Assembly (NCBI RefSeq): GCF_030408775.1
Contig: NZ_CP047210.1
Span: 744,001 to 808,000 of the forward strand
Direction of reading: 5' to 3'
Length of the DNA stretch: 64,000 nt
Origin: Corynebacterium fournieri
Lineage (GTDB): Bacteria; Actinomycetota; Actinomycetes; Mycobacteriales; Mycobacteriaceae
Shown here piece after piece: positions 31,746-45,980 of this stretch; the stretch's first letter is position 1, and each line of letters starts with the position of its first letter. The notes beneath the pieces were generated by a model that was not told where the DNA came from, did no database searches, and saw only the letters and a list, made by a program, of their open reading frames with translations. Position numbers and translations under genes: made by a program.

Positions 31746-31833
31746 TGAGCCCGAAGCGGTTTGGCCTGAAGCCGGAATTTTAGATTCGGCGGGGTTAGTA
31801 CCTACTGTTTCTGTTCATCAGGTTGCCCCGGGC

Positions 31834-31989: not shown

Positions 31990-31992
31990 CTG

Positions 31993-32196: not shown

Positions 32197-32307
32197 GGCA
32201 GCGAACTTCCCGCCGGTAGCCCGCGCTTTCGGGTTTGCCAGCAGAGCAGCGGCGGCGAGCTCGGCCGCGCCGGAGACGTACGTGTAGGCGCGTGCGGAGC
32301 CGGGGTG
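32197..32307 (-). pseudogene. DoxX gene fragment
   Basis: Encodes about 37 residues (including RAYTYVSGAAELAAAALL and KFAA) nearly identical to residues 29-70 of the intact DoxX protein at 45607-45963, in the same orientation. Nucleotide identity is high over about 110 bp and then stops abruptly at both sides. It is a duplicated gene fragment within a mosaic of remnants. Confidence 0.75.
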
Positions 32308-33135: not shown

Positions 33136-34429
33136 TCATCTCGGTGTCGTCCGGCTTGCCGCGGTAGCGGCCATCGTCGCCGGGGAAGTTGTTGTCCAGC
33201 GCGGTGAGGTAGCGGCCGTCTTCCAGCTGGATGATGGTTTCGACACTGAGCAGCGCGAATTGGAACGGATCGCCGACGCCGTAAGCGCGGGCGTCGGAGA
33301 CCATGCCGATTTTGCCCGGGTTGGCAATGCTAAGCAGGTCCGCCATCAGGTCCTTCTTCAGCGTGGAGCCAGCCTTGGCGTCCGCGAAGTCCTTCACCTC
33401 GAAGACCTTCTTAAGCTGGGCCTCCGAGCCGCGGAAATCGTCGCGCTCGAGCATGAGCAGGCGGCCGTCCTTGGTCAAGAATGCGTCGCCAATCAGCGCG
33501 TCTTCGTCTTCTGCAAGGTAATCCCAGGTCTTTCCGGTGTACTTTCCGGTTTCGGTGTCGAACTGGGAGATCACGCGCACGCGCTTGTCGGTGGCTTCGT
33601 CGAGGTAGCCCTCGAAGATCGGGTAGAGGTAGCGGCCGTCGGTGGCCATGGCTTCGAAGCCCTTGGAGTTGCGCAGGTTCGGCTTTTCTTCAGCGCCCAG
33701 CGTCGGGTTGGACGGGCTCTTGACATCCGGGTAGGCAAACGGGGCGTCGAGAAGTGTGCCGTCCTTGTCCACGTGGAGGATGTAGGGGCCGAACTCTTCG
33801 CCAACCCAAAAGGTGCCGTCCGCGGCCTGCACGAAGGACTCAGGGTCGAAATCCGCGCCGGTGAGCAGGCGGTCCTCGGTGTCGTTGTTGACGATGTCCC
33901 AGGAAATTTTGTTGTTCGGGTCCTTCAGCGAAACGTAGTCCAGCACTTCGATGCCGCCGGTGTCCTTCGGGTCCTTCGCGGTGCCCGCGGTCTCCCAGTT
34001 CGGCTTCACCGTGTAGATGCGCAGTAGGAAGTCGGAGGAGTTCTTCTTCGAGCCGAAGCCGTTGTCGGGAAGCGCGTAGAACTGGCCATCGCCCTTCTCA
34101 ACAATTCCGGAAAAGCCTGGGATGACCTGGCCCTTGAACGGGTGGGTCTGCCCGTTGCCGTCGAAGGCATCCTTGCCGGAATCCGGGCCAGGCGCCTGGT
34201 AGAGCGCCGAGAGCTTCGCGCGACCGTCCAGGACGGGGCCTTGTGCCGTGGACGGGGCAGCTGCCTGGTTGCTTGATCCTGTCCCCTCGGAGCTTCCGCC
34301 CGCAGCGGCTCCGATGGCGCCGCCGACGAGACCGCCGACGACGAAGGCGCCTGCGACGGCGGCGATGATCTGCTCGAAGTTCAGGTCCTTGATCAGCTGG
34401 TCAAGCGGGGGAGGGAGCTGGATGTTCAC
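33116..34429 (-). CDS. phytase-like esterase domain protein, exported
   Basis: A 437-residue protein with an N-terminal hydrophobic segment (about 20-45, AAVAGAFVVGGLVGG) followed by a low-complexity Ser/Gly/Ala linker and then a beta-propeller-like esterase-like-phytase domain (about 75-437). Typical pieces are GFSGIVEKGDGQFYALPDNGF, DPESFVQAADGTFWVGEEFGPYI and KGFEAMATDGRYLYP. Likely a surface-anchored phosphoesterase; substrate unknown. GTG 34429 follows a weak GGTAGA. It sits between two copies of the tRNA-Leu locus. Confidence 0.82.
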   Translation of the reverse strand: MNIQLPPPLDQLIKDLNFEQIIAAVAGAFVVGGLVGGAIGAAAGGSSEGTGSSNQAAAPSTAQGPVLDGRAKLSALYQAPGPDSGKDAFDGNGQTHPFKGQVIPGFSGIVEKGDGQFYALPDNGFGSKKNSSDFLLRIYTVKPNWETAGTAKDPKDTGGIEVLDYVSLKDPNNKISWDIVNNDTEDRLLTGADFDPESFVQAADGTFWVGEEFGPYILHVDKDGTLLDAPFAYPDVKSPSNPTLGAEEKPNLRNSKGFEAMATDGRYLYPIFEGYLDEATDKRVRVISQFDTETGKYTGKTWDYLAEDEDALIGDAFLTKDGRLLMLERDDFRGSEAQLKKVFEVKDFADAKAGSTLKKDLMADLLSIANPGKIGMVSDARAYGVGDPFQFALLSVETIIQLEDGRYLTALDNNFPGDDGRYRGKPDDTEMITFSVK

Positions 34430-34502
34430 GTGCTTCTACCTTTGCAGTGTCCGGGAACCTGAGCGTCAGCTCAGGTAGAATTTAGTATTTGCACGGAGAG
34501 TG

Positions 34503-34662
34503 TAAGGCGGGTCGGTCGGCTCCGCACGGCGAAAACGAGCCGACCGATTCCCGCCCGGAGGCGCCGGGGAAGTACGATGTTTCCCGTCGCCCCTATAGCC
34601 CAATTGGCAGAGGCAGCGGACTTAAAATCCGCCCAGTGTCGGTTCGAGCCCGACTGGGGGCA
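34503..34662. repeat. tRNA-Leu promoter and gene, intact copy
   Basis: Partner of 31834-31989. Contains an 11-bp perfect stem (34512-34522 with 34537-34547), a TACGAT -10-like box about 10 nt before the tRNA, and the tRNA. The stem just upstream of the promoter could terminate incoming transcripts. Confidence 0.8.
34589..34662 (+). tRNA. tRNA-Leu (UAA)
   Basis: A 74-nt cloverleaf: acceptor GCCCCTA/TGGGGGC, anticodon stem GCGGA/TCCGC with loop CTTAAAA (anticodon TAA, codon UUA), T-arm GTCGG-TTCGAGC-CCGAC. The variable loop is only 5 nt (CCAGT), unlike the long arm usual for bacterial tRNA-Leu. CCA is not encoded here. The 3' half is the attachment site of the integrated element. Confidence 0.88.
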
Positions 34663-34663
34663 C
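34629..34663 (+). other. attL
   Basis: 35 bp identical to 44727-44761, covering the 3' side of the tRNA anticodon stem, the T-arm and the acceptor end. Crossover within it leaves the tRNA functional but replaces the native 3' flank, so the CCA seen at attR is not encoded at this copy. Confidence 0.88.
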
Positions 34664-34708
34664 GTTTATCAGGCGAAACGAGTGCCGAAGCTGTCGATCG
34701 CCGGTTGA

Positions 34709-34727
34709 GGTGTCCGAAAAATGTCCA
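34709..34727. repeat. putative integrase arm-type repeats near attL
   Basis: GGTGTCCGAAAAATGTCC, i.e. two TGTCC units 10 bp apart separated by an A-run. The same arrangement occurs beside attR at 44591-44608, as expected of arm-binding sites for a tyrosine integrase. Confidence 0.45.
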
Positions 34728-34843
34728 TTTAAAAACGGGCCGCCATCGCGCGCGCGTGTTGTCGGCCGTGCACGTCAATTCGGCCGAAAGGCCTGATACC
34801 TCTATAACGCGCGCGACCCCCCCTTTGACCGGGGAGAGAGAAA

Positions 34844-34959
34844 CCTGACTCGGGTCGCGCGGTGCTCAGTCAGGGGCGGGATGTGCCGATGAATATGGCC
34901 ACCGGGGTAATCTCCGGCACTATGCCCACCTGACTGAGCACCGCGCCCCCCGAGTCAGG
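34844..34959. other. large nested inverted repeat in the 34,664-34,999 gap
   Basis: The 337-bp stretch between attL and the first element gene holds no gene. Its core is an almost perfect 31-bp inverted repeat (34844-34874 with 34929-34959, one small internal bulge) enclosing a second one (GTGCCG 34883-34888 with CGGCAC 34915-34920). On the plus strand it is followed by ATTTTTT (34961-34967). It could be a terminator for rightward transcription, a structured RNA, or the packaging (cos-like) site of the element. Confidence 0.7.
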
Positions 34960-34999
34960 GATTTTTTACGCGGGGTCAAAAAGTTTGCCGTAGCTTGGC

Positions 35000-35515
35000 T
35001 TATCGCACCCAGTTACCGCCCTTATTTTCCTTCGCGTCATCTTCGTTTCCGATGCGGCCGACTTCATTGAGGTTGACGGCACCGGCCGAGAGTGCCAGTA
35101 GTTCGCGTTTGGTCTTGTCGTAGTCTTCGGTCGCGGCGTCGACCCACTTTTCTCGCTGCCAGCCGAGCAAGCGACCGGCCTTGATGCCTTCGCGCTCTAC
35201 GAGCTCGGCAGCGCGTTTGCGGCCTTCGGCCCGGTCAACCTCGTCGACGCGGTTCGCCCGTGTGAGCAGATCATCGTAGACGTCTTTGTCGAGCACGACG
35301 GTTGAGTCGGCCGCTGCTGCCGCTACGTCGTCGGCTTCTTCGCGGGCGGCGACTACTGCGGCGACGAGCTCGTCGAAGGTGACGATCTCTTCCGGGTCGA
35401 GACCGAGTGATTCGACGAGCAGCGCAAGCTGTTCCGCTGTGATAGTCATGGTTTCCGGCGCTTCGGCGGCGAAGGTGACGGCCTGGTTACGGCCACGGTT
35501 GAGGAATTCGAACAT
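35000..35515 (-). CDS. scaffold-like phage head protein
   Basis: A 171-residue acidic, helix-rich protein. Its middle (VVLDKDVYDDLLTRAN...) and end (ELVEREGIKAGRLLGWQREKW, then GAVNLNEVG) resemble the C-terminal scaffold part of Mu-gpI-like prohead proteases of actinophages, here encoded separately from the protease domain at 37128-37529. The assignment rests on pattern memory. Last gene of the leftward operon; GTAGGAGAG precedes ATG 35515 and overlaps the cement gene stop region. Confidence 0.5.
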   Translation of the reverse strand: MFEFLNRGRNQAVTFAAEAPETMTITAEQLALLVESLGLDPEEIVTFDELVAAVVAAREEADDVAAAAADSTVVLDKDVYDDLLTRANRVDEVDRAEGRKRAAELVEREGIKAGRLLGWQREKWVDAATEDYDKTKRELLALSAGAVNLNEVGRIGNEDDAKENKGGNWVR

Positions 35516-35523
35516 CGTCTCTC

Positions 35524-35907
35524 CTACTGGTTCAGGCTGACGAGCACGTCGCTGTCGGCGTCAGCGTTGTCGACGGCGTAGCCAACTGCGATGCCGTCGC
35601 TGGTGTTGGTTGCTTTGCCGTCGTTGCCGACGTAGATCGTCTCGCCGGCGGTGATCTTGACTTCTGCGGTGACGGTGAGGATGCGGGATGCGCCGCGTGC
35701 GACTCCGACGAGCTCGTCGGCTGCTGCGTCGTACTTGAATACGCCGGCGGCGAGTGCGCCGGGCTTAGCAGTGGTGGTGGATAGCAGGTTACGTGTACGC
35801 GGGCCTGCTATCGCGGCGAAGGTCTTGCCCCTTACTGGCGTGGTTGCCACGGTGGTGAGGTCGGTGCCCGGGTTGTAGTAGTCGCGGGCCTGGTTGATGA
35901 AGCTCAC
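35524..35907 (-). CDS. capsid cement/decoration-like protein
   Basis: A 127-residue small beta-rich protein. The order GVFKYDAAADELVGVARGAS, KITAGETIYVGNDGKAT and DGIAVGYAVDNADADS fits the DUF2190-type capsid cement proteins that stud HK97-fold shells. It lies directly downstream of the major capsid gene (9-nt gap), the usual phage position. GTG 35907 is preceded by AGGAGA. Confidence 0.65.
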   Translation of the reverse strand: MSFINQARDYYNPGTDLTTVATTPVRGKTFAAIAGPRTRNLLSTTTAKPGALAAGVFKYDAAADELVGVARGASRILTVTAEVKITAGETIYVGNDGKATNTSDGIAVGYAVDNADADSDVLVSLNQ

Positions 35908-35916
35908 TTTGTTCTC

Positions 35917-36816
35917 CTATTCGTTTGTGCCTGTGATCACTGCGATGGCGGAGGGCTTCGTCACGCCCATGACTGGCATGCAGAAGCCTTGCACCCAGGT
36001 CTGGCGGTGGTGTTCGTCGCGCCATGTAGTCACGGTGAGCGATTCTTCGTAGTTGACAAAGCCGATTTCGCCGGCGTCGACGAGGTAGGCGTGCCCCGCC
36101 GGTACGTGGTTGGAGACCACGGCGGTGAGGTTGTAATCGTCGAGCATGGGCTTGAGGTCGGTGCCGTACATGATTCTCAGCGCCGAGTAGTCCTTCGGGG
36201 TCACGATTAGGTGGTCGAATTCGACGCCGAGGTCTTGTTCGGCGGCGTTCGCAAAGATGTCAGCGAAGTTTGCAGACGGCAGCGCGAAGGGGTCGGTGAG
36301 GTTCGCAGGGTTGCCTTGTGCCTGCATCTGTGTCCACGGTTCGGAGGATGCGATCTCGAAGACGTCTTCGGAACCTTGAACTGCGGCGGTGATGGTCTCG
36401 ACGGCTCGCTGGTTGATCTTGCGGGTGATCGTGTTTGTCAAGGCGGTGACGTCGTTGTCGAAGTCGACGGTGAGGTTGCGACGGCGGGCTTCGTCGGTGA
36501 CGGCGAACTTGCCGCCGAAGTCCTGGACACGGGCGACCTGCATTTCTGGACGTGTCGAGTAGAGCACCGGGTACTCGTCGCCGGGGTTGCGGTCGGCGAC
36601 GTCTTCGGCGGTGTAGAGGTGCGCCTTCGTTACCGGCGAATAGAACACTGCGCCGCCGTTGACCGGTGCGGAGTGCTGGGTGAATAATGTGTCGAGAAGC
36701 TTGCTGCCACTTGCGATTTCGGCGATGCGCTGCTCGATGGTCTCGGGCTGGTCGAGTGCCTGGTCGATGGTGATCTTACCGTCTTGATAGTCGACGGCTC
36801 CGGGATAGAACGACAT
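35917..36816 (-). CDS. major capsid protein (HK97-fold type)
   Basis: A 299-residue protein with the major capsid protein features of actinophages: an N-terminal arm after MSFYPGAVDYQDGKITIDQAL, the central VQDFGGKFAVTDEARRRN segment, and a C-terminal TWRDEHHRQTWVQGFCMPV strand near the end. Ile/Val-rich beta strands alternate with short helices. It would form the shell of a small satellite capsid. ATG 36816 follows GGGAG; an upstream in-frame ATG at 36879 lacks a ribosome binding site. Confidence 0.75.
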   Translation of the reverse strand: MSFYPGAVDYQDGKITIDQALDQPETIEQRIAEIASGSKLLDTLFTQHSAPVNGGAVFYSPVTKAHLYTAEDVADRNPGDEYPVLYSTRPEMQVARVQDFGGKFAVTDEARRRNLTVDFDNDVTALTNTITRKINQRAVETITAAVQGSEDVFEIASSEPWTQMQAQGNPANLTDPFALPSANFADIFANAAEQDLGVEFDHLIVTPKDYSALRIMYGTDLKPMLDDYNLTAVVSNHVPAGHAYLVDAGEIGFVNYEESLTVTTWRDEHHRQTWVQGFCMPVMGVTKPSAIAVITGTNE

Positions 36817-36836
36817 GTGAAATCTCCCTTCGTGGT

Positions 36837-37115
36837 TTATCGTGCGGCGCGTTTGCCGGCGTAGTAGCCCTTGAGCCAAGCGCCGAGGTTTTCGGGGTTT
36901 TCGTATTCGGGTACGTGGTCGACGCCGAGGGCATCTTCGTCGAGGGTCACGCCGATGACTGCGGGGCGCTGCGGTTGCATCTTGAGGTCGACCGGCTCAA
37001 AGACACATGCGTCGATCTTGTCGAGGGTGAGCGCGATTCCGGCGTTCGACTGGAATCGGGTTACCGTTGTTGGCTCGAAAATGCGGTCGCGTTTCTGCTG
37101 CGGGTGAATGGCCAT
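36837..37115 (-). CDS. 92-aa capsid-module protein
   Basis: A 92-residue soluble protein between the protease and major capsid genes, with no recognised domain. It starts with a basic stretch (HPQQKRDR) and ends with GAWLKGYYAGKRAAR; the middle is beta-rich. Position suggests a head-assembly role, perhaps a size-determining or accessory head protein. AAAGGAG, located within the stop region of the protease gene, precedes ATG 37115. Confidence 0.6.
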   Translation of the reverse strand: MAIHPQQKRDRIFEPTTVTRFQSNAGIALTLDKIDACVFEPVDLKMQPQRPAVIGVTLDEDALGVDHVPEYENPENLGAWLKGYYAGKRAAR

Positions 37116-37127
37116 GTGTAGCTCCTT

Positions 37128-37529
37128 TTACGTGTAGAGGTCTCGAAGGTCGGCGAGCGTTGATACTGCGGGCCATTGAGCGCCGAGTAGTGCTACGGCG
37201 GTAAGCGCCATGCGGTAGGTGCGGCCGTTGTCTTCGAGGTTGAACGTTGCTTCGATGCTGCGCTGTGGGTAGCTGTCGGGCAGCATCTTGTAGACCCAAT
37301 CGGGCATGTCTACGAAGTCGCCGAGCAGTGTGTGGCCGGCGTCTGCGAGACGAAGATTTTTCACTCGGCCGACACTGGGGTCTGCGTCGAAACGCGGGTC
37401 AGTGTGGCCGAGTTTTAAAGGAGGAAACGGAAGCATCCGGGCCGATGCAACGGCCGATGCAAGGTCGGCGCGTGTCAGTGTCACGGTGCCGGTGGATGCG
37501 TTCCACGTGCCGGTGCGAACGAGGGGCAC
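37128..37529 (-). CDS. prohead protease-like protein, Mu-gpI type
   Basis: About 133 residues matching the N-terminal protease domain of Mu-gpI-like actinophage proteins: VPLVRTGTWN, TGTVTLTRADLASAV, PPLKLGHTDPRFDADPSVGRV, PQRSIEATFNL and LTAVALLGAQWPAVSTL. His of KLGHTD and Ser of RSIE are candidate catalytic residues. No ATG is available, so GTG 37529 is proposed, 14 nt after the HTH gene; the frame continues upstream but there it overlaps another gene. The scaffold part usually fused to this domain is missing and may be the 35000-35515 product. Confidence 0.68.
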   Translation of the reverse strand: MPLVRTGTWNASTGTVTLTRADLASAVASARMLPFPPLKLGHTDPRFDADPSVGRVKNLRLADAGHTLLGDFVDMPDWVYKMLPDSYPQRSIEATFNLEDNGRTYRMALTAVALLGAQWPAVSTLADLRDLYT

Positions 37530-37542
37530 ACCGATGTATGAG

Positions 37543-37914
37543 TTATCTGCCGCCGAAGTCGCGAAGCTGCTCGACTTCGGCGCGAAGGAATTGCCAGCGG
37601 CCGGCGAGTTTGCGGCCTGGCAGTCTCCCCCGTGTAGCGAGGTCACGCACGTTGCGCGGTGAGCAGCTGAGGATGTGCGCTGCTTCTTCGACGTCGATGA
37701 ACTCATGCCGCACACATTCGTCGGTGGCCTGCTCGATGTGTGCCGAGTTGCCGAAGTTGGCAGCGATCTCTTCCATAATCTCCCGTAGCGCGGGCGCGAG
37801 AGCGCCGCCGGCGCGTCGTTGTGTGCGGTCGAGGTATGCAAGAGCGCGGCCAACGTTGATGGCGTCTTCCTGGTCGAGGATGAGTGCGCTTCGGATTACT
37901 CGGCTGGACATCAT
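37543..37914 (-). CDS. excisionase-type HTH protein
   Basis: A 123-residue DNA-binding protein. The first 65 residues are helical and unrecognised; residues about 72-118 form a MerR/Xis-type winged helix (FIDVEEAAHILSCSPRNVRDL, then LPGRKLAGRWQF). ATG 37914 overlaps the stop of the WhiB-like gene (ATGA). Lying between the replication genes and the capsid genes, it may control the capsid operon; that is inference. Confidence 0.72.
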   Translation of the reverse strand: MMSSRVIRSALILDQEDAINVGRALAYLDRTQRRAGGALAPALREIMEEIAANFGNSAHIEQATDECVRHEFIDVEEAAHILSCSPRNVRDLATRGRLPGRKLAGRWQFLRAEVEQLRDFGGR

Positions 37915-38255
37915 GCCGCCTTCGGCTTCGGTGGACGGCCGAAGTAGCGGGCTTCGCCGGCCCATACCCCATCGGCGTTTCGGGGTATGCGTATGCCGCA
38001 CTTGGCGAGAATCGGGCAAGTGTTGCATTGCCGCTGTGCCCACTCGATGCGCTCTTTGTAGTCTTCGTGCGTTTCGCCTTCGAGTCGGTCGGTATCGAAG
38101 CGTGGCGCTTGCCCAACACACCGGCCTTTGCGTAGGTCGTAGGCCGGTTGAATGTTCTTGACGAATCGCAGTAGCGCGGGCCCAGGCAGTCGCACCGGGG
38201 CGGCGGCGACTTCGGCGCGTGTTGGTAGCGGCGGGCGTGCCGGCTCGTCTTTCAT
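37911..38255 (-). CDS. WhiB-like [4Fe-4S] transcription factor
   Basis: A 114-residue WhiB-family protein with the four cluster cysteines Cys46, Cys77, Cys80 and Cys86 (C-Xn-C-X2-C-X5-C) and the turn GVWAG at 96-100 followed by a basic tail (GRPPKPK). Such proteins bind the sigma factor region 4 to redirect transcription; phage-borne copies interfere with host WhiB proteins. It overlaps both neighbours by 4 nt, so it is translated as part of the operon. Confidence 0.85.
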   Translation of the reverse strand: MKDEPARPPLPTRAEVAAAPVRLPGPALLRFVKNIQPAYDLRKGRCVGQAPRFDTDRLEGETHEDYKERIEWAQRQCNTCPILAKCGIRIPRNADGVWAGEARYFGRPPKPKAA

Positions 38256-38566
38256 GCTGCACCGCTTTCCATCGTGTCGACGATGCGGTTAGCGAGCTCA
38301 AAGGCGTGACGAGCTTCGAGTTCTAGCGTGATGTAGAGCCCATTTGTCATGTGGGCTCGAATGGAGACTCGTCGTTTTCTTTTGCTGTTTAGGTGCCTGG
38401 CGACGGTGATTTCGGTCGTTTTCCAGCCGTGGACGGGTTGACTAAGGCGGGCGCGGATGGGTTCGGCGGCAGGCTGGTTGTTTTCTGTGGGGAGTTTTGT
38501 GCTCGGAACATGTTCCGGGCGTTCCTGCTGGTCAAGGGTGTTTTGGGTTGTGTTCCGAACATTCAT
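38252..38566 (-). CDS. element protein of unknown function, 104 aa
   Basis: A 104-residue protein with a polar Asn/Gln-rich N-terminal third and a basic middle (HLNSKRKRRVSIRAH) followed by an amphipathic C-terminal helix. No domain is recognised. Its first 25 codons lie within the TGTTCC/GGAACA array, so coding and array are superimposed. AGGAAC precedes ATG 38566. Confidence 0.55.
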   Translation of the reverse strand: MNVRNTTQNTLDQQERPEHVPSTKLPTENNQPAAEPIRARLSQPVHGWKTTEITVARHLNSKRKRRVSIRAHMTNGLYITLELEARHAFELANRIVDTMESGAA

Positions 38567-38659
38567 GGTTTTGTTCCTATTCTGTTCTGCGTGTTCCTTT
38601 GTTCCTGGGAACAAGGCGAAAAGTTGGGTTGAGCTGGTGGAACATTTGGAACATGTTCC
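38505..38659. repeat. iteron-like TGTTCC/GGAACA array, candidate replication origin
   Basis: Ten exact TGTTCC or GGAACA hexamers and two near matches lie within 155 bp. They include two perfect GGAACATGTTCC palindromes, one at each end (38505-38516 and 38648-38659), and a GTTCCTGGGAAC. The array directly follows the primase/helicase gene, where satellite origins usually lie. Strong clustering is seen; origin function is inferred. Confidence 0.7.
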
Positions 38660-40071
38660 TAGGCGGTTTTCTGTGCGAATTGCCATGCGTGGGGGTTTTT
38701 GACGTGTTTGACGCCGAAGATGCGGCGCGCCTTCGGGTGGCCGTCGACTGCGGTGTTCTTGTATTCGATGCGCGGGTCGGTGGCCTTGAGCGCTTGGGCG
38801 AATGAGGATTGTTTGACAGCTCCGACTCCGACTTCTTCGCACCACGTCTTGTAATCGCCGTGAATGTCGCGGAGTAGAACGTGATCGTCTGGGTTGCCGG
38901 TGAGGGTGTAGTTGTCGTGATCGTCGAGGAAGGTTGCGACGGGTTGTGAGACGTCGGCGAGCATCTCGGTTAGTCCGGCCATCGTGCGCGGGGTGGTGAA
39001 CGTGCCGGCGGCTTCGAGGTCGCGAAGGCCTTCGAGTGCCCAAAGGAAGATGCCGGGGAGTTCTGCGGCGAGTTTGGCTCCGAGCTCCGGGTCGGGGTTG
39101 TCGGCGTGGGAGCGTTTGAGCTCGATGGAGACGAAGCGGTTGACCAGCGCGCCGGATGCGTCGGTGAGTCGAGGTATCTCGTTGGAAACGAGCATGAAAC
39201 GGGTGTCGAGCCGGCCGTTCCACGCTTCGTGGTACTTGCGGTCGATGGTCTGTGCGTCGCCGCCGGTGATGCCGATAATGCGTTCGACGGTTTGGCCGAT
39301 GTTGCGGTCGCGGTCGTTGCGGGTGTCTTCGAACACTGCGAAGGTCTTGCCGATAAGGACTTGTGCGCCGAAGTTGGTGTCGAGCGTGCCGAAGCTTGGG
39401 GATACGGAGTTTTGCGTTCCAACGAGCTGTTGGAGCACTCGCGAGATGGTGCCTTTACCCGAGCGGGGCGGGCCGATAAGCATGAGTGCCTTATGCAGGT
39501 CGGTGCGGCCGCTAATGAGGTAGCCGGCCCACTGTTGGAGTGCGCGGGCGGCGTCCGGGTCGTGAGCGAAGGTCTGTTTGAGAAACGCCTTCCACTGCGA
39601 GCATGTCGCCTTCGGGTCGTATGGGAACGGCAGGTGCCACAACGTGAACAGAGCTGGGGTGTGTCCTTCGGTGAAGGTGCCGGTGCGGAAGTTGAGCACT
39701 CCGTTGTCGAGGGCGATAAGTGCTTTCGGGTTGTCGTTGGTGCGGCCGTCGAGCCAGATCGGCGGTTCGGCGGTGTCTGCGAGACGGTTGAGCCACTGTA
39801 ACGGCTCGATCGTGTTGGCAACCTTCGCTGGTGTCGGCGAGAAGTCGACCATTCCCTTGTCGGTTTCGAACTGCGTTTGCTCTAAGCGTTCCCAGATCGG
39901 GCCTTTGATTTCGAGCTCGTCGGCCGGCGACCAAGACCGGCCGTTGTAGCGATACCAGCCGTGTTTGAGCCAGTAACGAAGCGTAGGAATACCGTTGCGG
40001 CTGAACACGTCGGCATTGAGTGCGTGGGCGACAGCGAACGGCTTCGAGGGCGGCGGATAGATCGAGTCCAA
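38659..40071 (-). CDS. P4/D5-family primase-helicase
   Basis: A 470-residue replication protein. A D5-like N-terminal region (1-190) precedes an SF3 helicase with Walker A GPPRSGKGT at 200-208, Walker B-like AVFEDT at 245-250, and a sensor region FMLVSNEIPRLTDAS (about 293-307). The C-terminal 100 residues form a winged-helix-like DNA-binding region. No separate primase catalytic motif is evident, so priming may be supplied otherwise. TTG 40071 is the only start near the upstream stop. Confidence 0.85.
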   Translation of the reverse strand: MDSIYPPPSKPFAVAHALNADVFSRNGIPTLRYWLKHGWYRYNGRSWSPADELEIKGPIWERLEQTQFETDKGMVDFSPTPAKVANTIEPLQWLNRLADTAEPPIWLDGRTNDNPKALIALDNGVLNFRTGTFTEGHTPALFTLWHLPFPYDPKATCSQWKAFLKQTFAHDPDAARALQQWAGYLISGRTDLHKALMLIGPPRSGKGTISRVLQQLVGTQNSVSPSFGTLDTNFGAQVLIGKTFAVFEDTRNDRDRNIGQTVERIIGITGGDAQTIDRKYHEAWNGRLDTRFMLVSNEIPRLTDASGALVNRFVSIELKRSHADNPDPELGAKLAAELPGIFLWALEGLRDLEAAGTFTTPRTMAGLTEMLADVSQPVATFLDDHDNYTLTGNPDDHVLLRDIHGDYKTWCEEVGVGAVKQSSFAQALKATDPRIEYKNTAVDGHPKARRIFGVKHVKNPHAWQFAQKTA

Positions 40072-40074
40072 ACC

Positions 40075-40599
40075 TTATGCACCTTCTTTCGATACGACGT
40101 GCAGGTGCGGTGTGTGGCCGGTGCGGGCGTGAATGTTGAGCATGATTTGGCGGTCGCGGGACATGCGATCGATTAGCTCGTCGAGGGGTGCGGTGTCGTG
40201 GTCGCCGTAGGTGTAGACGTCTCCGATTTTCTGGCGAAGGTGGTCTTCGGCGATTCGGCGAGCAAGTGCTTTCAGCCGGTGCTTCGCGGGGGTGTGGGCG
40301 ACGGCCGGGGCGACGAGGTCGTGCCAGTAGCGGCGCATCGGTTCTTCGTCGAGGTGGCCTTCGTCGCGAAGGTGGTCGTGTACGTCGGTTGGGGCGATTG
40401 GTTTGAGGGCAAAACCGGAGTCGATGCCGGCGCGGGCGACGGTGGTGATCGCGGCGAGTACGGTTCGGGCTTGCCAGTGGGGGAGATCGTCGGAGTGGAT
40501 GAAGCGGGTGCCGTCGTAGGCTTCGCGGTTGGTTGATTCGAAGAGAAGCGCGGCGAGGTATTCGAGTGTGTGCGCTTCGCGGGGGTGAAGGTGTTTCAA
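40075..40599 (-). CDS. DnaB N-terminal-like protein, 174 aa
   Basis: A 174-residue helical protein. The arrangement HWQARTVLAAITTVARAGID, a TDVHDHLRDEGHL segment and later ALARRIAEDHLRQKIG is reminiscent of the DnaB helicase N-terminal domain that contacts primase, but the ATPase domain is absent. It is followed after 3 nt by the primase-helicase, suggesting an accessory replication role. Start is TTG 40599 with TTAGGAA upstream; alternatives cannot be excluded. Confidence 0.5.
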   Translation of the reverse strand: MKHLHPREAHTLEYLAALLFESTNREAYDGTRFIHSDDLPHWQARTVLAAITTVARAGIDSGFALKPIAPTDVHDHLRDEGHLDEEPMRRYWHDLVAPAVAHTPAKHRLKALARRIAEDHLRQKIGDVYTYGDHDTAPLDELIDRMSRDRQIMLNIHARTGHTPHLHVVSKEGA

Positions 40600-40716
40600 C
40601 TGACTGTTCCTAACGTGAGGTAGGTGTCTGCGGCATATTGCGTTGTGTGGGTGACGGCTACCCGGTGGCCGCCGGGGACTTGCACTCCCGGTGTCTGCTA
40701 GTCGGCCTGTTTTACG

Positions 40717-40818
40717 TCACTTGACGTTTGTGAGTAGGTGGTTGAGGTCGAGAGCTTCGAGCAGTAACGCGGCTTCGGCTTCGAGAATCTGGTCTGCCTG
40801 GTCGAGAAGGTCATTCAT
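40717..40818 (-). CDS. acidic small ORF, 33 aa
   Basis: A 33-codon frame beginning MNDLLDQADQILEAEA, leucine-rich and acidic, with GC-rich third positions typical of the element's coding sequence. Its ATG overlaps the end of the 171/148-aa gene by 8 nt. The remaining 40600-40716 shows no gene. Small element proteins of this type can be phage-interaction factors, but nothing identifies one here. Confidence 0.4.
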   Translation of the reverse strand: MNDLLDQADQILEAEAALLLEALDLNHLLTNVK

Positions 40819-41257
40819 CGTCGTTCACCTCGCCCCATGACGAGATGCCGAGTTTGGCGAGTGCGGCATCGTCTTCGGCGAGAAGTGCGTCGAGCAACTT
40901 CGTCACTGTTTCGGTGTCGCCTGCGCGGTGAGCTTCGATAAGTTCGTAGTGCATATCTGCTTCGCGCATGCGACGTTGTTGAGCTTCTTCGTTGGCCTGT
41001 TGTCGGCGAAGCTGCTCTTCTTTCTTTCGTCGCTCTTCTTCGGCGTGGGCGACTGCGGCGTCAACGCAAACCGGGCAAAGGTGCGCGGGGCGAATGTTGT
41101 CGGCGAGGTCGAGGTAGTCGGCGGCGTTGACAAACACCGTTCGACGGCGCTCGTCGGGAATGTCGCACTCTCCCCAGGTGCCTAAGCGCCCGTTCGTGCG
41201 GTGCGGTAGGTGGAGTTCAACCGACCGTGAGGTATTGTTCTGGTTGAGGTTCGGCAT
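40811..41257 (-). CDS. element protein with zinc-like CxxC and coiled coil
   Basis: A 148-residue protein if started at ATG 41257, which has a strong AAAGGAG 9 nt upstream; an in-frame ATG at 41326, directly after the preceding stop, would add 23 residues. It contains a HLCPVCVDAAV knuckle-like CxxC near residue 60 and then a long charged Glu/Arg/Gln helix (about 70-105). It is acidic overall. No known family is recognised. Confidence 0.6.
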   Translation of the reverse strand: MPNLNQNNTSRSVELHLPHRTNGRLGTWGECDIPDERRRTVFVNAADYLDLADNIRPAHLCPVCVDAAVAHAEEERRKKEEQLRRQQANEEAQQRRMREADMHYELIEAHRAGDTETVTKLLDALLAEDDAALAKLGISSWGEVNDDE

Positions 41258-41326
41258 ATCTACTTGCTCCTTTGCCCCGGTAGTCGTTGGCGCGGTTGCC
41301 GGGGTTTTCTCGTTGATTGGGGACAT

Positions 41327-41707
41327 TTAGGACACCAGCCCTTCAAGGTGGAACGGGCTTCCAGCGCGGGGGCATCCGAGCAATCGTTCGGCGATTACGG
41401 CGGCGACATTGACGGTGCGTGTCTTGTCGAAGACTTCGGGGGACTTCTCAAACATCATGTTGAGCCCGTCGAGAAGTTTCTGTGAGTAATCGCAGAAGCG
41501 TTTGCGCACACTGCCTTCCGGGTCTTGACCAGTTCCGAGCGCTAGGGCTTCTTCCAAGTCTTCAATTGCCGACTGAACACCGGCTGCGAAAGTCACGTTT
41601 TCCTCTGTCTTGGTGCGTTCGATCGCGTGCGCTGCTTCATACATGGCCGCGGCGTGAGTTATAGCTGCGGACTTCAGGAAGTACTCGAGCTGCTTCTGGT
41701 TGAGCAT
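41327..41707 (-). CDS. element protein, 126 aa
   Basis: A 126-residue, mainly alpha-helical soluble protein of unknown function, beginning MLNQKQLEYFLKSAAITHAA. No cysteine motif, membrane segment or nucleotide-binding motif is visible apart from one CDY and one GCP. GAGAGGAAAAC precedes the ATG, and the stop abuts the next gene, consistent with the leftward operon. Confidence 0.6.
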   Translation of the reverse strand: MLNQKQLEYFLKSAAITHAAAMYEAAHAIERTKTEENVTFAAGVQSAIEDLEEALALGTGQDPEGSVRKRFCDYSQKLLDGLNMMFEKSPEVFDKTRTVNVAAVIAERLLGCPRAGSPFHLEGLVS

Positions 41708-41725
41708 GTTTTCCTCTCTAGGGAA

Positions 41726-42448
41726 TTACGCGACGTAGCCGTCTTCTAGGCCGTCGAAGTAGCGGTCGGCATCCGCCGAGCGGGTCAAAAGTCGGAAGCC
41801 TTCGCCGGGGTGGTTGATGTGCTGCGCAGGCGAGACGAAGGCCTGCTTGCCGTCGTTGGCGATGTGCGGCACGACGGTCGACACTGGCATGCCGTTCGAG
41901 TAGGCGGCCGGGTCTTCGTTCGCTTCGCGGTGGTGCATGTATTCGCGGCGAATCTGTGCGATCGCTTGCTCGATTACGGCACGAACTTCGCCGAGCTCGT
42001 CGGTTTCAGGGCGCTCGGCGAGCACGTTGAGAGCAACGTCGAGCGGGTTGCCGTGATGGAGGAATCGCAGGGAATCAACCGGCGAGTAGTCCATACGTGG
42101 CGAGTGCGCGGTGCCGAAGGGGCCGGAGGGTTCCCGTTCGTGTGAGTGGGAATCTTCGGCACCTTCGAGGGAATCTTCCGGGGCGAGATCGGCCGAGCGT
42201 TGAGCTACGGCATCGAGGGCGTCGGTCCACGATTCGACCTTCACGGTCTCGATGCACTCTTCGTTGGCGTAGATCATGACGATGTAGCCGGCGTTGTCCT
42301 TGATCGCGTAGATCTCGAAGCGGTCGGAGAGCGCGTTTGCGATTTCGCGCGCGGCGTCCAGGTCGAGACCTTCGGCGAAGGTGCGGGGCTCGTCGAGAAG
42401 GACTGCGGCAGTGTTGCCGCGCTTCTCGACCGTAGGGATAAACAACAT
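41726..42448 (-). CDS. element protein, 240 aa
   Basis: A 240-residue acidic protein that I do not recognise. The N-terminal 80 residues look like a compact alpha/beta unit (RFEIYAIKDNAGYIVMIYANEE read in parts), the middle is disordered and His/Ser/Glu-rich, and the C-terminal half is helical. Second gene of the leftward operon after the excisionase, where PICIs carry regulatory or phage-interference genes. AAAGGAA precedes ATG 42448. Confidence 0.58.
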   Translation of the reverse strand: MLFIPTVEKRGNTAAVLLDEPRTFAEGLDLDAAREIANALSDRFEIYAIKDNAGYIVMIYANEECIETVKVESWTDALDAVAQRSADLAPEDSLEGAEDSHSHEREPSGPFGTAHSPRMDYSPVDSLRFLHHGNPLDVALNVLAERPETDELGEVRAVIEQAIAQIRREYMHHREANEDPAAYSNGMPVSTVVPHIANDGKQAFVSPAQHINHPGEGFRLLTRSADADRYFDGLEDGYVA

Positions 42449-42463
42449 GAGGGTTCCTTTCGG

Positions 42464-42652
42464 TTAGGCGGTCGCGGGCAGCTCGTCCAGACCGAGCGCG
42501 TCGAGAAGCGGCTTCGTCGGTACGACGTAGCGGCCGTTGATCTTTAGGACTGGCGACGGAAAATTGCCGGTGCGGGCCGCTTCATATGCGCTGCTCCGGC
42601 TGATTCCGAGCAGGGCTGCGGCGACTGGGATGGAAACTGTGGGGGTGGTCAT
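42464..42652 (-). CDS. xis: excisionase-like HTH protein
   Basis: A 62-residue DNA-binding protein of the HTH_17/AlpA type (VSIPVAAALLGISRSSAYEAA, then FPSPVLKINGRYVVP). It is first in the leftward operon and is placed opposite the repressor, as xis is in SaPI-type islands; it may assist excision or activate genes. ATG 42652 with AGGAGG just upstream is preferred over a longer frame. Confidence 0.75.
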   Translation of the reverse strand: MTTPTVSIPVAAALLGISRSSAYEAARTGNFPSPVLKINGRYVVPTKPLLDALGLDELPATA

Positions 42653-42786
42653 CACCCCTCCTTTCGACTGAAAGAAGGACAAGTTCTCACTTGAATCGAG
42701 GTTTTATGACTCGATAACAGTCAAACTAGTTGTAATTGACTGGACTGTCAAGACATACCCGTATCCGATGGCATAAACTGACTGGC
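42653..42786. promoter_or_regulatory. divergent repressor/excisionase control region
   Basis: Contains several TTGAC half-sites: CAGTCAA (about 42718), TTGACTG (42736), TGTCAAG (42746) and GTCAA just inside the repressor gene, including the inverted pair TTGAC-N6-GTCAA at 42736-42751. Leftward, TTGACA-N17-TAGTTT forms a plausible promoter for xis; rightward, TAAACT (42774-42779) lies 7 nt before the repressor ATG. A lysogeny-type switch is inferred. Confidence 0.6.
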
Positions 42787-43494
42787 ATGGAGTCAATTGA
42801 ATGGGTGGAAAACTTCACTCGCCAAATGGGACGTGCTATCGACATTGCCCGCGAGAAACATTCCGACCAGTGGATATCCGACAAAACCCAGTTGCATGGG
42901 CATCCAATCTCTCGGACGGCCATCTCCGAATACCGTCGCGGAGTTCGCAAGACGATGCCGGTGACTGACTGGCTCGTCATCGCCGCAGCACTTGAGGTGC
43001 CGCCCGTCTCGCTTTTGTTCCCGGAGGTGCCTAACGGGCTCGTTACACTTCTCCCCAATCATCTGGAGGTCGCCGCGTTCGATGCGGTCGAATGGGTTAG
43101 CGGCGAGCGACAAACTGTGCCTGTTGGAGCCGACGTGCTCATTGGCATGGAGGATGGCGACCTGTTGGCGATGCATACGAAGATTGAATATCTCCAGGGG
43201 AGAGTTGAATACCCTGATCCCCAATTCGACTTAAGCGAAAACGATCCGTCGAAGCAGGTCAAGATTCTTAAACTCGCGCGCGAGGCGGCGGCACTGTCGG
43301 ATCGCCTGTCCGGACAACTTTCAGAATTGTGGGCAGCGTTGACTCAAGGACAAAACCGGATTGATGACCTAACTCCGCTGATAGAAACGCTCCAACGACA
43401 AATTGACAACTGCATGAGCCAAATCGCCGAATTAGGTGGGAACGTTGAAAAGCCCGATCCTGTTGAACTGAGCGATGGCGATGGCGAGGGGTAG
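42787..43494 (+). CDS. phage-type repressor with HTH and coiled coil
   Basis: A 235-residue regulator. The N-terminal third holds an HTH (PISRTAISEYRRGVRK with following PVTDWLVIAAALEVPP); the C-terminal third is a predicted coiled coil (from about 168, ALSDRLSGQLSELWAAL onward), useful for dimerisation or for being bound by a phage antirepressor. There is no LexA/CI peptidase motif. Start at ATG 42787, leaderless. It probably maintains the element silent, like Stl. Overlaps int by 20 nt. Confidence 0.72.
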   Translation: MESIEWVENFTRQMGRAIDIAREKHSDQWISDKTQLHGHPISRTAISEYRRGVRKTMPVTDWLVIAAALEVPPVSLLFPEVPNGLVTLLPNHLEVAAFDAVEWVSGERQTVPVGADVLIGMEDGDLLAMHTKIEYLQGRVEYPDPQFDLSENDPSKQVKILKLAREAAALSDRLSGQLSELWAALTQGQNRIDDLTPLIETLQRQIDNCMSQIAELGGNVEKPDPVELSDGDGEG

Positions 43495-44617
43495 GCCGGC
43501 GACGCCGCTCGGAACGTGGGGCGAGATCCACGTTAAGGAGTTAGCGAGCGGCAAGTTAGAAGCATCTACACGCCTTCGCCTATGGAACGGCGAAACGGTA
43601 CGCCTTCGAGCGCGGGGGAAGTCCGCTACCGCCGCTCAAAACAACCTCAAAGCACGATGCACTGAACGCTTAGGCACAACTGACACGCAAGACCTCACCA
43701 CTACGAGCACTGTGGGGCAATTGCTCGAATTCTGGCTCGACGGCAAAACCGATATCCGGCCGCAGTCACGCGACCGCTACCGCCGGATAATCGACCTCCA
43801 CCTTGAGCCGGCCTTCGGGAAACTGCGCATCCGAGAAGTCTCACCCGCGCTTCTCGATGCTTGGCTAAGGGGTCAAACGAGCGGTGTCGCAGCTACCTCA
43901 CGGACAGTTCTTTCCGGTGCTTTCAGTATGGCCGCCCGCTTCGGCCTGGTCGTGAGTAACCCGATGCTTGCAGTCGAGCCGGTGAATAGGCCGCGAAAAG
44001 AAGTTCGAGCTCTAACGCGGGACGAGATTCCACGTTTCCGGGCGGCGATCGCGAAGTCGGAAAACGAGACGCTTATCGACGTTGTCGATGTAGCGCTGGC
44101 GACCGGCCTACGGGCGGGGGAGCTGCTTGCACTCCGTTGGGAAGACCTTCACCTCGACGAAGCGAGTCCACGATTGGAAGTATCCGGCACGCTCGTTTAC
44201 TCGAAAGAGCTCGGGCACCGGCGGCAAGAAGAAGGCAAAACATCACAAGCGCGCCGGCCGGTGCAACTCTCCGAATCGTGCGCAACAACCCTCCGGCGAC
44301 GTCGCGAAAAATACGGGACGCTACCGATGGTGTTCCCGAGTGGCGCTGGAAGTTACGTATGGGAGAACAACTTCAACCGCTGGTTAAGAGAGTGGCGCGG
44401 CGAAGAATTCAAGTGGGTAACGATTCACTCTTTACGTAAAACGCTCGGGTCGCTGGTCTACGAAGAGCTCGGGCCACACCGGGCAGCCGAAGTGCTCGGA
44501 CACTCGAATTCGACCCTCACTGAAACGGTCTACGTTCAGCGCAATAGCGCGGGCGTAGCGATCGGCGACCTGGTCGACAACATGCTCGACGGTGTCCAAA
44601 AAATGTCCGAAAAATAA
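43475..44617 (+). CDS. int: tyrosine recombinase/integrase
   Basis: A 380-residue phage integrase. An AP2-like arm-binding N-terminus (1-70) and a SAM-like core-binding domain (about 75-165) precede the catalytic domain with Arg213 (TGLRAGE), His318-X2-Arg321 (HSLRK), His343 (LGHS) and nucleophile Tyr353. It integrates at the tRNA-Leu 3' end; attR is 110 bp downstream. Starts at ATG 43475 or 43481 inside the repressor gene, so expression is linked to it. Confidence 0.93.
   Translation: MAMARGRPATPLGTWGEIHVKELASGKLEASTRLRLWNGETVRLRARGKSATAAQNNLKARCTERLGTTDTQDLTTTSTVGQLLEFWLDGKTDIRPQSRDRYRRIIDLHLEPAFGKLRIREVSPALLDAWLRGQTSGVAATSRTVLSGAFSMAARFGLVVSNPMLAVEPVNRPRKEVRALTRDEIPRFRAAIAKSENETLIDVVDVALATGLRAGELLALRWEDLHLDEASPRLEVSGTLVYSKELGHRRQEEGKTSQARRPVQLSESCATTLRRRREKYGTLPMVFPSGAGSYVWENNFNRWLREWRGEEFKWVTIHSLRKTLGSLVYEELGPHRAAEVLGHSNSTLTETVYVQRNSAGVAIGDLVDNMLDGVQKMSEK
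44591..44608. repeat. putative integrase arm-type repeats near attR
   Basis: GGTGTCCAAAAAATGTCC followed by GAAAAA, within the last codons of int, matching the motif at 34709-34727. The 109 nt between int and attR show no gene. Confidence 0.45.
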
Positions 44618-44726
44618 GCGTCATAGCCCGGAATGAGTGGCACTGGTCGCAGTCGGTGGAGCTGGCGACCAGCGTAAACGGAACTAATCGGACTCCCTGC
44701 TATGGAACACTTGTTTCAATCAACAA

Positions 44727-44761
44727 CCGCCCAGTGTCGGTTCGAGCCCGACTGGGGGCAC
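44727..44761 (+). other. attR
   Basis: 35-bp copy of the tRNA-Leu 3' half (identical to 34629-34663), here followed by CACTA so that the discriminator A is followed by an encoded CCA. This is probably the original chromosomal 3' end of the tRNA gene. Confidence 0.88.
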
Positions 44762-44763
44762 CA

Positions 44764-45522
44764 CTACACGGCGGTGTAACCGCCGTCGACGAGGTGGTAG
44801 GAGCCGTTGACAAACGACGCGTCGCTTGAAAGCAAGAAGCTCACCATCGCCGCGACCTCTTCCGGCTCGCCCAGGCGGCCAGCAGGATGCTTATCGACGA
44901 GCGCCTGACGGACCTCACCCTGCGCCCTTTGAATCAGCGGCGTGTCGATGTATGCCGGACCCACGGAGTTGACCCGGATGCCGGTGGCGGCGTAGTCCGC
45001 GGCCAGCGACTTAGTCAGCCCCACCACGCCGTGCTTCGCGGCGGTATAGGCCTCGATGCCGCCGGCGCGTCCCACGGAGCCGTGGATGGAAGACATGTTC
45101 ACAATCGCGCACTGCTCCGCGTCGCCCTGCGCGAGGAATTGCTTGAGCTGGTAGTGGCAGCCGTAGGCCACGCCGGAGAGGTTGATAGAGATGACCTTGT
45201 CCCAATCGGCAAGATCCTTATCTGCCAGCGGGGTGTGATCGCCTACGCCCGCGTTGTTGACGGCGAGGTGGAGGGCACCGTAGGTGTCCACGGCGAACTT
45301 CACGGCCGCCTCGTTGTCCTCTTTGCTCGCCACGTCCTGGCGGAACGCGGCCGCCACACCACCATTCGCCTCGATCGCGGCCGCGACCTCTTTGGCGGCG
45401 TCCTCGTTGAGGTCGGCGACGACGACTTTCGCGCCTTCGCCGGCGAGACGCTCCGCGATAGCCTTGCCGATGCCGGAGGCGCCGCCGGTGACCAGCGCAA
45501 CCTTGTTGTCGAACTTGCCCAT
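44764..45522 (-). CDS. SDR family oxidoreductase
   Basis: A 252-residue classical SDR. TGGASGIG at about 13-20 binds NAD(P), NNAGVG follows near 89, the catalytic Ser lies in NMSSIHG and YTAAKHG carries the Tyr-X3-Lys. 3-hydroxyacyl, acetoin or sugar-alcohol oxidation are all possible for this group. ATG 45522 with GAAGGAC upstream is chosen. The gene ends 2 nt after attR, so before integration the tRNA gene directly faced it. Confidence 0.85.
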   Translation of the reverse strand: MGKFDNKVALVTGGASGIGKAIAERLAGEGAKVVVADLNEDAAKEVAAAIEANGGVAAAFRQDVASKEDNEAAVKFAVDTYGALHLAVNNAGVGDHTPLADKDLADWDKVISINLSGVAYGCHYQLKQFLAQGDAEQCAIVNMSSIHGSVGRAGGIEAYTAAKHGVVGLTKSLAADYAATGIRVNSVGPAYIDTPLIQRAQGEVRQALVDKHPAGRLGEPEEVAAMVSFLLSSDASFVNGSYHLVDGGYTAV

Positions 45523-45606
45523 GACTGCTTCATGTCCTTCCGTCGGGGAATAGGTGCAGCCAAAGTGTAAGCAGCCATCAACCGGCGCAGGGCCGGAATT
45601 GGGCAA

Positions 45607-45963
45607 CTACTTCTTCGCCGCGCCGAGCGCCGCTTTGATCAGCGGGATCTGCAGCGGCAGGCGCCCGATAGAGATGATCTGCTTCTGCCACGGTTCGTCG
45701 CGCCATTGCCACGCCATGTTGAAGTTGGCCGGCCACACTGCCGTCAAAAGGGCCGCGGCGAACTTGCCGCCAGCAGCCCGCGTTTTCGGGTTGGCCAGCA
45801 GGCCCGCGGCGGCGAGCTCCGCCACGCCGGAGACGTACGTGTAGGTGCGAGCGTCGCCGGGCAGGGCGTCGGGCACGATGCCGTCGAAAGGCTCGGGCTT
45901 TGCAAAGTGGAGCACGCCCGCGCCAGCGAACAGGGGGATGAGAAATTTCTGAAACTTGGTCAC
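45607..45963 (-). CDS. DoxX family membrane protein
   Basis: A 118-residue small membrane protein with three or four hydrophobic segments, including LIPLFAGAGVLHF at the N-terminus and VSGVAELAAAGLLANPKTR in the middle, typical of short DoxX-like proteins. Function unproven; relatives associate with oxidative stress. GTG 45963 has TACCCT 7 nt upstream and no ribosome binding site. A piece of this gene is duplicated at 32197-32307. Confidence 0.78.
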   Translation of the reverse strand: MTKFQKFLIPLFAGAGVLHFAKPEPFDGIVPDALPGDARTYTYVSGVAELAAAGLLANPKTRAAGGKFAAALLTAVWPANFNMAWQWRDEPWQKQIISIGRLPLQIPLIKAALGAAKK

Positions 45964-45980
45964 CCCGCCGAGGGTACGCC

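Follow-up and report, generated by a model that had tools for sequence, protein, structure and literature searches.

The window analyzed here, a 64,000-nucleotide stretch of Corynebacterium fournieri DNA (contig NZ_CP047210.1, positions 744,001 to 808,000, forward strand), harbors an element of ~10 kb that is integrated at the 3′ end of a tRNA-Leu(taa) gene and bracketed by two copies of this end. The element carries genes for a phage-type shell and a site resembling the cohesive-end (cos) sites of phages. All 16 of its recognized proteins were scanned against Pfam and PHROGs, and no family of portal, large terminase subunit (TerL), connector, or tail proteins and no HNH endonuclease was found among them. 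A putative repressor gene and a tyrosine integrase gene lie on the plus strand, and opposite to them, on the minus strand, runs an operon with the order AlpA/HTH_17-like gene (putative excisionase gene, xis), three early genes, a gene for a 174-aa protein, helicase, small gene, whiB-like gene, helix-turn-helix (HTH) gene, protease, 92-aa orphan, capsid, cement, and scaffold. This divergent arrangement of int and repressor versus a xis-led operon had been proposed in a preliminary description of the locus and was confirmed, with a repressor call that is itself weak (E 0.04 or worse). The insertion site, the cos-like sites, and the shell module comprise the following features.

34589..34663, plus strand: tRNA-Leu(taa) gene, the integration target (ARAGORN, Rfam tRNA)
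34624-34663, plus strand: attachment (att) copy 1, the 3′ end of tRNA-Leu(taa) (repeat search)
34810..34897, minus strand: cos-like packaging site (DNA model E 5e-14 and covariance model 64.4 bits, both trained on the site; leave-one-out E 3.3e-8)
34906..34991, plus strand: second, inverted cos-like copy (leave-one-out E 6.7e-9; covariance model 45.1 bits)
35000..35515, minus strand: scaffold, 171 aa, last gene of the operon, ending in the WVR tail of type-A elements (phrog_2976 E 1.3e-14, phrog_3894)
35524..35907, minus strand: cement/decoration protein (Phage_cement_2 E 2e-7, phrog_673)
35917..36816, minus strand: major capsid protein (phrog_1650 E 6e-57, Phage_capsid_4 E 4e-16)
36837..37115, minus strand: small orphan protein, 92 aa, just upstream of the capsid gene (gene call, alignment)
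37128..37529, minus strand: head maturation protease domain alone, 133 aa, GTG start (phrog_3894 E 3.5e-48)
44722..44761, plus strand: att copy 2, 38/40 identical to copy 1 (direct-repeat search; flanks abut in genome G154)

Insertion, shell module, and relatives

The empty site is present in a close relative, genome G154 (contig C4), in which flanks 40060-40995 and 40996-41966, 85% and 89% identical to the flanks in the window, abut base to base. As no gap separates them, the insertion is exact, and the earlier assignment of the element to the tRNA-Leu gene holds. An Rfam scan of positions 30000-46000 gave just two tRNA matches. A copy of tRNA-Leu at 31917-31990, one base short in the anticodon loop, sits in a 161-bp stretch that is 93% identical to the intact tRNA-Leu region and is perhaps the scar of an older insertion. 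An 88-bp direct repeat (78/88) flanks the element at 32201-32288 and 45758-45845.

The presence of capsid genes, stated before, was borne out by the Pfam and PHROG matches of capsid, cement, protease, and scaffold. PF03864, tried first as capsid family on the element's own genome, gave nothing; the capsid belongs to another family and is 39% identical to that of the Gordonia phage Schnabeltier. Protease and scaffold are a single 480-aa protein in Schnabeltier. The window protease aligns with the first third of phrog_3894 and the scaffold with the C-terminal region of such proteins, so that the usual protease-scaffold of phages is split in the element, with the protease half upstream and the scaffold half after the cement gene. 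The protease residues H42 and S91, which we take to be the catalytic residues of this protease class, are invariant in all 10 aligned sequences (nine satellites and Schnabeltier). The preliminary description had also stated that all frames are open with good ribosome binding sites; the frames are indeed open, but no binding site was scored for the GTG start of the protease gene at 37529, and the genes of the 174-aa protein and the helicase start with TTG.

A search with the capsid protein gave matches in 33 of 242 Corynebacterium genomes. Thirteen elements in 12 of the 242, one genome holding two, were grouped as type A. The order capsid, cement, scaffold is kept in all of them, and the 12 other type-A capsids are 48-57% identical to that of the window. 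An integrase was recognized in 12 of the 13 and the HTH gene likewise in 12, with L037 as the exception. Type B comprises L048, L053, and L056, which have a divergent capsid (26-27%) and a cement gene. Two loci in Dietzia (L075, L077), which are not att-bounded in our analysis, show the order whiB-HTH-protease-capsid-cement, with a scaffold too in L077. A scan of named genomes yielded nine loci, seven in Corynebacterium and the two in Dietzia, and the hosts included C. hylobatis, C. minutissimum, C. sputi, C. dentalis, and C. marambiense. Two pattern-based scans for relatives of the capsid protein in the IMG/VR virus collection were negative, so that virus surveys may overlook such elements.

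Ten type-A and all three type-B elements are bounded by att repeats of at least 25 bases; their lengths range from 9,412 to 11,227 bp (mean 9,959, standard deviation 514). The longest, L034, includes an insertion sequence of ~1.4 kb, and L053 contains transposase-like genes. The targets are genes of tRNA-Ala, Thr, Ser, Lys, Val, and Leu, and for L056, located near smpB, apparently the transfer-messenger RNA (tmRNA) gene. No att pair was found by the pair search for L035, L037, L041, and L075. The occurrence of bounded elements of similar size (9.4-11.2 kb) at different tRNA and tmRNA sites argues against a single prophage that lost its middle segment, a possibility raised with the preliminary description.

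Type-A elements possess two kinds of protease. Nine encode the separate protease; in L031, L033, L038, and L041 a ClpP-like protease is fused to a scaffold of the same kind, so that a protease is always present. Pfam CLP_protease was found in L038 and L041, the two fusions scanned, and the assignment of L031 and L033 is based on similarity to gp5 of Corynebacterium phage phi16 and on visible motifs. The scaffold is thus retained across type A while its protease partner is exchanged. It ends in WVR in 12 of the 13 elements and in WVRS in L040, and the window scaffold is 43% identical to phi16 gp5 across half its length. The motif GWVR forms the C-terminus of the stand-alone protease of L040 (7161-7661) and occurs close to the C-terminus of the one in L042 (7234-7698), as though the scaffold's tail, a tag for shell targeting, had been copied. 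The orphan upstream of the capsid gene has BLAST relatives in 10 of the 13 type-A elements, itself counted, and none of the 10 members scanned had a PHROG match. For the pair L036/L039, the ratio of nonsynonymous to synonymous substitution rates (dN/dS) was 0.06 for capsid, 0.10 for cement, 0.20 for scaffold, 0.12 for protease, 0.15 for orphan, and 0.27 for the HTH gene. The capsid of L040 is 50% identical to that of Schnabeltier, and in the capsid tree type A adjoins Schnabeltier with weak support (85/66), L053 forming a long branch; with this support the tree shows neither single nor multiple capture of the capsid gene.

The absence of recognizable terminase, portal, and tail genes, noted before for the window element, extends to its relatives. 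In tblastn searches that used 33 proteins from phages Juicebox and Schnabeltier (including TerL, portal, connector, and tail proteins), portal and TerL were matched in none of 18 satellites, i.e., the window element and 17 related ones (13 type-A elements, two Dietzia loci, and three type-B elements). The same searches matched both portal and TerL in all 18 control prophage loci, which had been collected for distant capsid matches (L043, L045-L047, L049, L050, L054, L057-L067). L055, whose contig ends before the portal, was kept outside the control, and a decayed remnant in G193 (L044/L068) outside both the control and the satellite counts. Neither the 13 type-A elements nor L048 were matched by tblastn with portal and terminase of phi16. 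Profile-library scans of the relatives covered a selection of their proteins: of 10 in one such scan, four were replication proteins, one was a shell protein (L092), and five had no match. The large open reading frames (ORFs) of the relatives encode 419 aa and 467 aa in L037 and 415 aa in L041, the latter adjoining the integrase; the 419-aa ORF had no match at 0.01 when profile scanned. The largest gene without assignment in the window element encodes 240 aa.

The locus in G193, downstream of smpB, has scaffold, cement, and capsid genes resembling those of Juicebox but neither a portal nor a TerL gene close by, and looks like a decayed remnant. An ORF in L048 (13853-14185) has a Cys-rich N-terminus and a stretch of 35 aa that is 60% identical to gp1 of Juicebox, the first gene of the phage record.

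The cos-like site and candidate helpers

The cos-like site at 34810-34897 on the minus strand, overlooked in the preliminary description, occupies the non-coding end of the operon. The corresponding site of L037 and L056 is located upstream of the shell genes. The site consists of an AATCTT-G-rich lead, CTGACT, a C-rich spacer, and AGTCAG, followed by TCTCTCTCC or, in L040, L041, and L075, by TTTTTTACAC. When joined, the record ends of phi16 and of Schnabeltier resemble this site by eye, and by analogy with them a cut is predicted at ...GACCCGA|GTCAGG. Inverted second copies close to the cos-like site, as in the window, also occur in L031, L042, and the Dietzia loci L075 and L077.

A leave-one-out test, for which the training windows had been chosen by eye beforehand, recovered the site in 17 of the 18 shell-bearing elements, which is a new observation. 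Fifteen had E values below 1e-4, and L077 (0.0014) and L048 (0.035) were weaker; in L075 the best hit was on the opposite strand. A DNA model built on 12 satellite sites was then searched in 471,114 bases of phage and prophage sequence. The ten best hits were all located upstream of terminase genes or at a genome end (L063, 3.6e-15; L060, 5e-9; L064, 2.6e-6; L059, 3.5e-5; L061, 1.2e-4; L062, 4.3e-4; L066, 0.01; phi16 junction, 0.014; L067, 0.058; L058, 0.25). They were followed by a hit directly before the small terminase subunit (TerS) gene of a Mycobacterium abscessus prophage (0.91) and by weaker hits, some of them elsewhere. Detection of the Schnabeltier junction (0.091) required a model built on all 15 sites, and the hit before the terminase gene of IME1320_01 was weak (0.21). 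L065 could not be scored, as its contig ends there. BLAST of the cos regions against phages gave four weak matches at most, i.e., the site is detectable by profile only. In the Juicebox record the satellite models reached just E 5.7, away from the ends, and they had no hit in L043, L045-L047, L049, L050, L054, L055, and L057; Juicebox-type phages were therefore rejected as helpers.

A covariance model of 14 satellite sites was applied to the 242 genomes with E up to 0.01 per genome, for which two to three chance matches are expected, and gave 54 matches in 42 genomes. Twenty of them, in 20 genomes, lie at most 1.5 kb upstream of a Schnabeltier-type TerL gene on the same strand, and 18 fall in Corynebacterium satellites, of which they cover 15 of 16 (the training set included 13 of these sites). 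The other 16, at 11 loci, belong neither to these satellites nor to the TerL-adjacent sites, and the locus L092 (see below) was reached through them; the surroundings of L093 and L098 resemble host genes, and the matches there were taken as chance. Judged from these sequence matches, the site carried by the satellites appears to correspond to the cos region of phages and is predicted to be cut like it.

For a comparison of satellite and phage sites in pairs, we used 11 phage sites, namely, nine of the 20 TerL-adjacent sites and those of phi16 and Schnabeltier. Two genomes contain a satellite together with a TerL-adjacent prophage site, and each time the site of the resident prophage was the best of the 11: L032 and the G076 prophage site share 77 of 87 aligned bases, and L041 and the G119 prophage site share 80 of 88. 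These co-resident pairs, found in C. hylobatis and Corynebacterium sp. SN15, point to real helper pairs, two cases being few. For the window's own site, the closest of the 11 was that of the G085 prophage (59/80 aligned). Searches with the portal families PF04860 and PF05133 found none in the window genome and gave matches above the cut-off in three of 15 satellite genomes; they are insensitive and missed the portal of the G076 prophage. The capsids of the prophages with matching cos sites are 23-29% identical to that of the window where aligned.

Remaining genes and other cos-bearing loci

The regulatory, replication, and early part of the element contains the following features.

37543..37914, minus strand: HTH protein with a two-helix N-terminus and a C-terminal winged HTH (HTH_17; predicted model with a predicted local distance difference test score of 82)
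37911..38255, minus strand: WhiB-like regulator (phrog_12112 E 1.5e-5; Pfam Whib E 0.0075, under its cut-off)
38252..38566, minus strand: small conserved protein (relatives carry homologues next to the helicase)
38502-38662: inverted repeat, candidate origin (repeat search only)
38659..40071, minus strand: D5/P4-type replicative helicase, TTG start (Pfam D5_N E 4e-14, DUF5906 E 2e-13)
40075..40599, minus strand: 174-aa protein adjoining the helicase, TTG start (homologues at the same place in L039 and L042)
40811..42448, minus strand: three early genes, 42448-41726, 41707-41327, and 41326-40811 (gene calls and profile scans)
42464..42652, minus strand: AlpA/HTH_17-like Xis or activator, first gene of the operon (HTH_17 26.6 bits, cut-off 27; Phage_AlpA 19.1, cut-off 21)
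42736..43494, plus strand: putative repressor (PHROG regulator matches E 0.04 or worse; homologues in L033, L036, L039, L042, and L048)
43475..44617, plus strand: tyrosine integrase (Phage_integrase E 8e-15)

The P4-type helicase named in the preliminary description was recovered with both Pfam families; some other type-A elements (L032, L036) have replication genes of other kinds. Homologues in L036 and L039 were found for the first and third of the three early genes (listed as 41326-40811, 41707-41327, 42448-41726). In the family of the HTH protein, 10 of 11 members scanned matched phrog_66 (excisionase/regulator) and four matched phrog_57 (terminase small subunit), and the member of L036 had no phage relative among 50,697 records. 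The protein may be either a regulator or an adaptor resembling a terminase small subunit.

Cos-like sites also occur next to other gene sets. L092, the second satellite of the C. dentalis genome, adjoins the tmRNA gene (att at 1877 and 10150), and its recognized shell is one 598-aa fusion of Peptidase_S78 and Phage_capsid (7957-9753) near the cos-like site. In L088-L091, L094, L096, and L097, integrase and/or replication genes, assigned mostly by eye, are found near the site, and no shell gene was recognized in these loci by gene calls and scans of three L096 proteins. Six of them (L088, L090, L091, L094, L096, and L097) possibly represent a second, capsid-less class of satellites in Corynebacterium, and the borrowing of cos sites may thus extend further than the building of shells.

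Interpretation and comparison with known satellites

We consider the element to be probably a satellite of cos siphophages that makes its own small shell and obtains portal, terminase, and tail from a helper. The satellite nature and the own shell, proposed before, gain strength from the helper-type cos-like site, with the assembly of the shell as a likely rather than an observed step. Upon entry of a helper or induction, Int and Xis would excise the element, and its own helicase would replicate it. The late operon would then provide the shell from capsid, cement, scaffold, and maturation protease. By virtue of its copy of the helper cos, the satellite DNA would be cut by the helper terminase and packaged into the satellite shell, which would be assembled around the helper portal and completed by connector and tail of the helper. 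The narrow size range of 9.4-11.2 kb fits one genome unit per small head. Phages of this terminase group in our analysis have 40-58 kb, four to six times the size of the satellite. If head capacity grows as T to the power 1.5, a T=7 head holding 40-47 kb would correspond to 11-13 kb at T=3, which is near the need of the satellite.

Several observations weigh against this reading. The Schnabeltier TerL search detected no resident helper in the window genome, whose sole matches to the cos model are the two of the satellite itself. Of the 46 genomes in which TerL was matched, 26 have no cos-model match beside it, and L038 is the one of the 18 elements without a cos-like site detectable in the leave-one-out test. 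Type B (L048, L053, L056) has no recognized protease or scaffold, so that autonomy of the shell may not always hold. Selection is less clear in the closer pair L034/L035, with dN/dS of 0.37 for capsid and 0.40 for cement; the scaffold has 0.15 and the protease 0.11, the orphan is identical, and the HTH gene has 3.5 with almost no synonymous change. Furthermore, we know of no satellite shown to seat its own shell on a helper portal.

Alternatively, the satellite capsid might co-assemble with the helper capsid, force it into small heads, and thereby interfere with the helper. SaPIbov5 Ccm does something similar (passages of PMC5052747), and capsid and cement are the only shell proteins recognized in type B. 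For such remodelling, however, the protease, scaffold, and cement that type A also has, with low dN/dS in L036/L039, seem needless, and the capsids of the cos-matched prophages, at 23-29% identity where aligned, are distant from that of the window; we regard this alternative as rather unlikely. Capsid genes that act as a decoy or assembly poison against phages, in an element that is not packaged as a particle, would agree with the lack of a helper in the window genome as judged from TerL and the cos model, and interference of a capsid homologue with a helper is described in the same paper (PMC5052747). As the conserved phage-type cos sites and the att sites suggest that packaging and transfer are under selection, this explanation appears very improbable. 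Still less credible is an origin from a larger prophage by loss of the portal, terminase, and tail genes. In its favor, the shell proteins have relatives in phages, Schnabeltier among them, and one Juicebox-like remnant without portal exists, in G193. Yet ten type-A elements of similar size are att-bounded at tRNA-Ala, Thr, Ser, Lys, Val, and Leu, their gene order differs from that of phages, and the open frames, the low dN/dS in L036/L039, and the exact empty site do not indicate decay, in agreement with the preliminary description.

If the element is a satellite with its own shell and a borrowed portal, the arrangement may be recurrent. At least three shell modules, the Schnabeltier-like one of type A, that of type B, and the L092 fusion, might each have been combined with a helper-type cos site in the absence of portal and terminase genes, their foreign, distantly related capsids being nucleated by helper portals. 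We see this generalization as about equally likely to hold or to fail; if true, the pairing of portal and capsid would be far more permissive than assumed. Known satellites use the head of the helper as it is, reshape it, or bring along a whole head and motor, and the Corynebacterium elements seemingly follow a further way, with a shell of their own and borrowed portal, motor, and tail. With such elements it can be tested what parts of the phage head have to evolve together, and whether assembly of a foreign shell can begin on a given portal. For Corynebacterium, in which satellites have barely been studied, they add a family whose cos-like site offers a readable code for the helper.

The element shows general features of satellites, i.e., an integrase with att sites, a replication gene of its own, and no complete set of virion genes. 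Its helicase is of the type of satellite P4, the genome of which has about 11 kb. It differs from P4 in having its own capsid gene, and no Sid family was among its Pfam and PHROG matches. The literature considered comprised passages of PMC10690885, PMC5052747, PMC11389934, PMC10803314, PMC10023795, PMC10187409, and PMC12324425. P4 DNA is packaged via cos by the helper terminase, and the Sid scaffold reshapes the helper capsid (PMC10690885). Among the literature matches listed, of which titles and abstract openings were considered, no shell-only satellite and no such satellite of Corynebacterium appeared; the primary paper on capsid-forming phage-inducible chromosomal islands (cfPICIs) and two papers on Tycheposons and VEIMEs were not covered. 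Schnabeltier and phi16 have related shell proteins and a cos-like site but are complete tailed phages with the order protease-cement-capsid, in contrast to protease-orphan-capsid-cement-scaffold in the satellite. The Streptomyces satellites MulchRoom and MiniFlayer are likewise actinobacterial and have their own capsid genes. They encode TerS, TerL, portal, and adapter with no obvious replicase (PMC10690885), whereas the window element has a replicative helicase and no recognized TerL or portal.

With cfPICIs, of which the preliminary description had suggested it to be a minimal variant, the element shares integration, an own capsid protein and maturation protease, and the need of a helper for tails. 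By definition cfPICIs also encode portal, head-tail connectors, TerS, TerL, and HNH (PMC10690885). The window element yielded no match to portal, connectors, TerL, or HNH, and since the first three are defining, the label cfPICI is not supported. The nearest analogue appears to be the cos-type Staphylococcus aureus pathogenicity islands (SaPIs) with Ccm, which combine a cos site for packaging by the helper with a capsid-protein homologue; the window element has a cos-like site and a capsid homologue. One natural cos SaPI has 10.3 kb, and SaPIbov5 Ccm is a capsid homologue of the HK97 fold that is required for small heads and unable to form them alone (PMC5052747). The element described here differs, by description rather than by sequence comparison, in that it has a module with protease, scaffold, and cement and occurs in Actinomycetota. 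Its working mode would most resemble a cross between a cos SaPI and a capsid-forming PICI.

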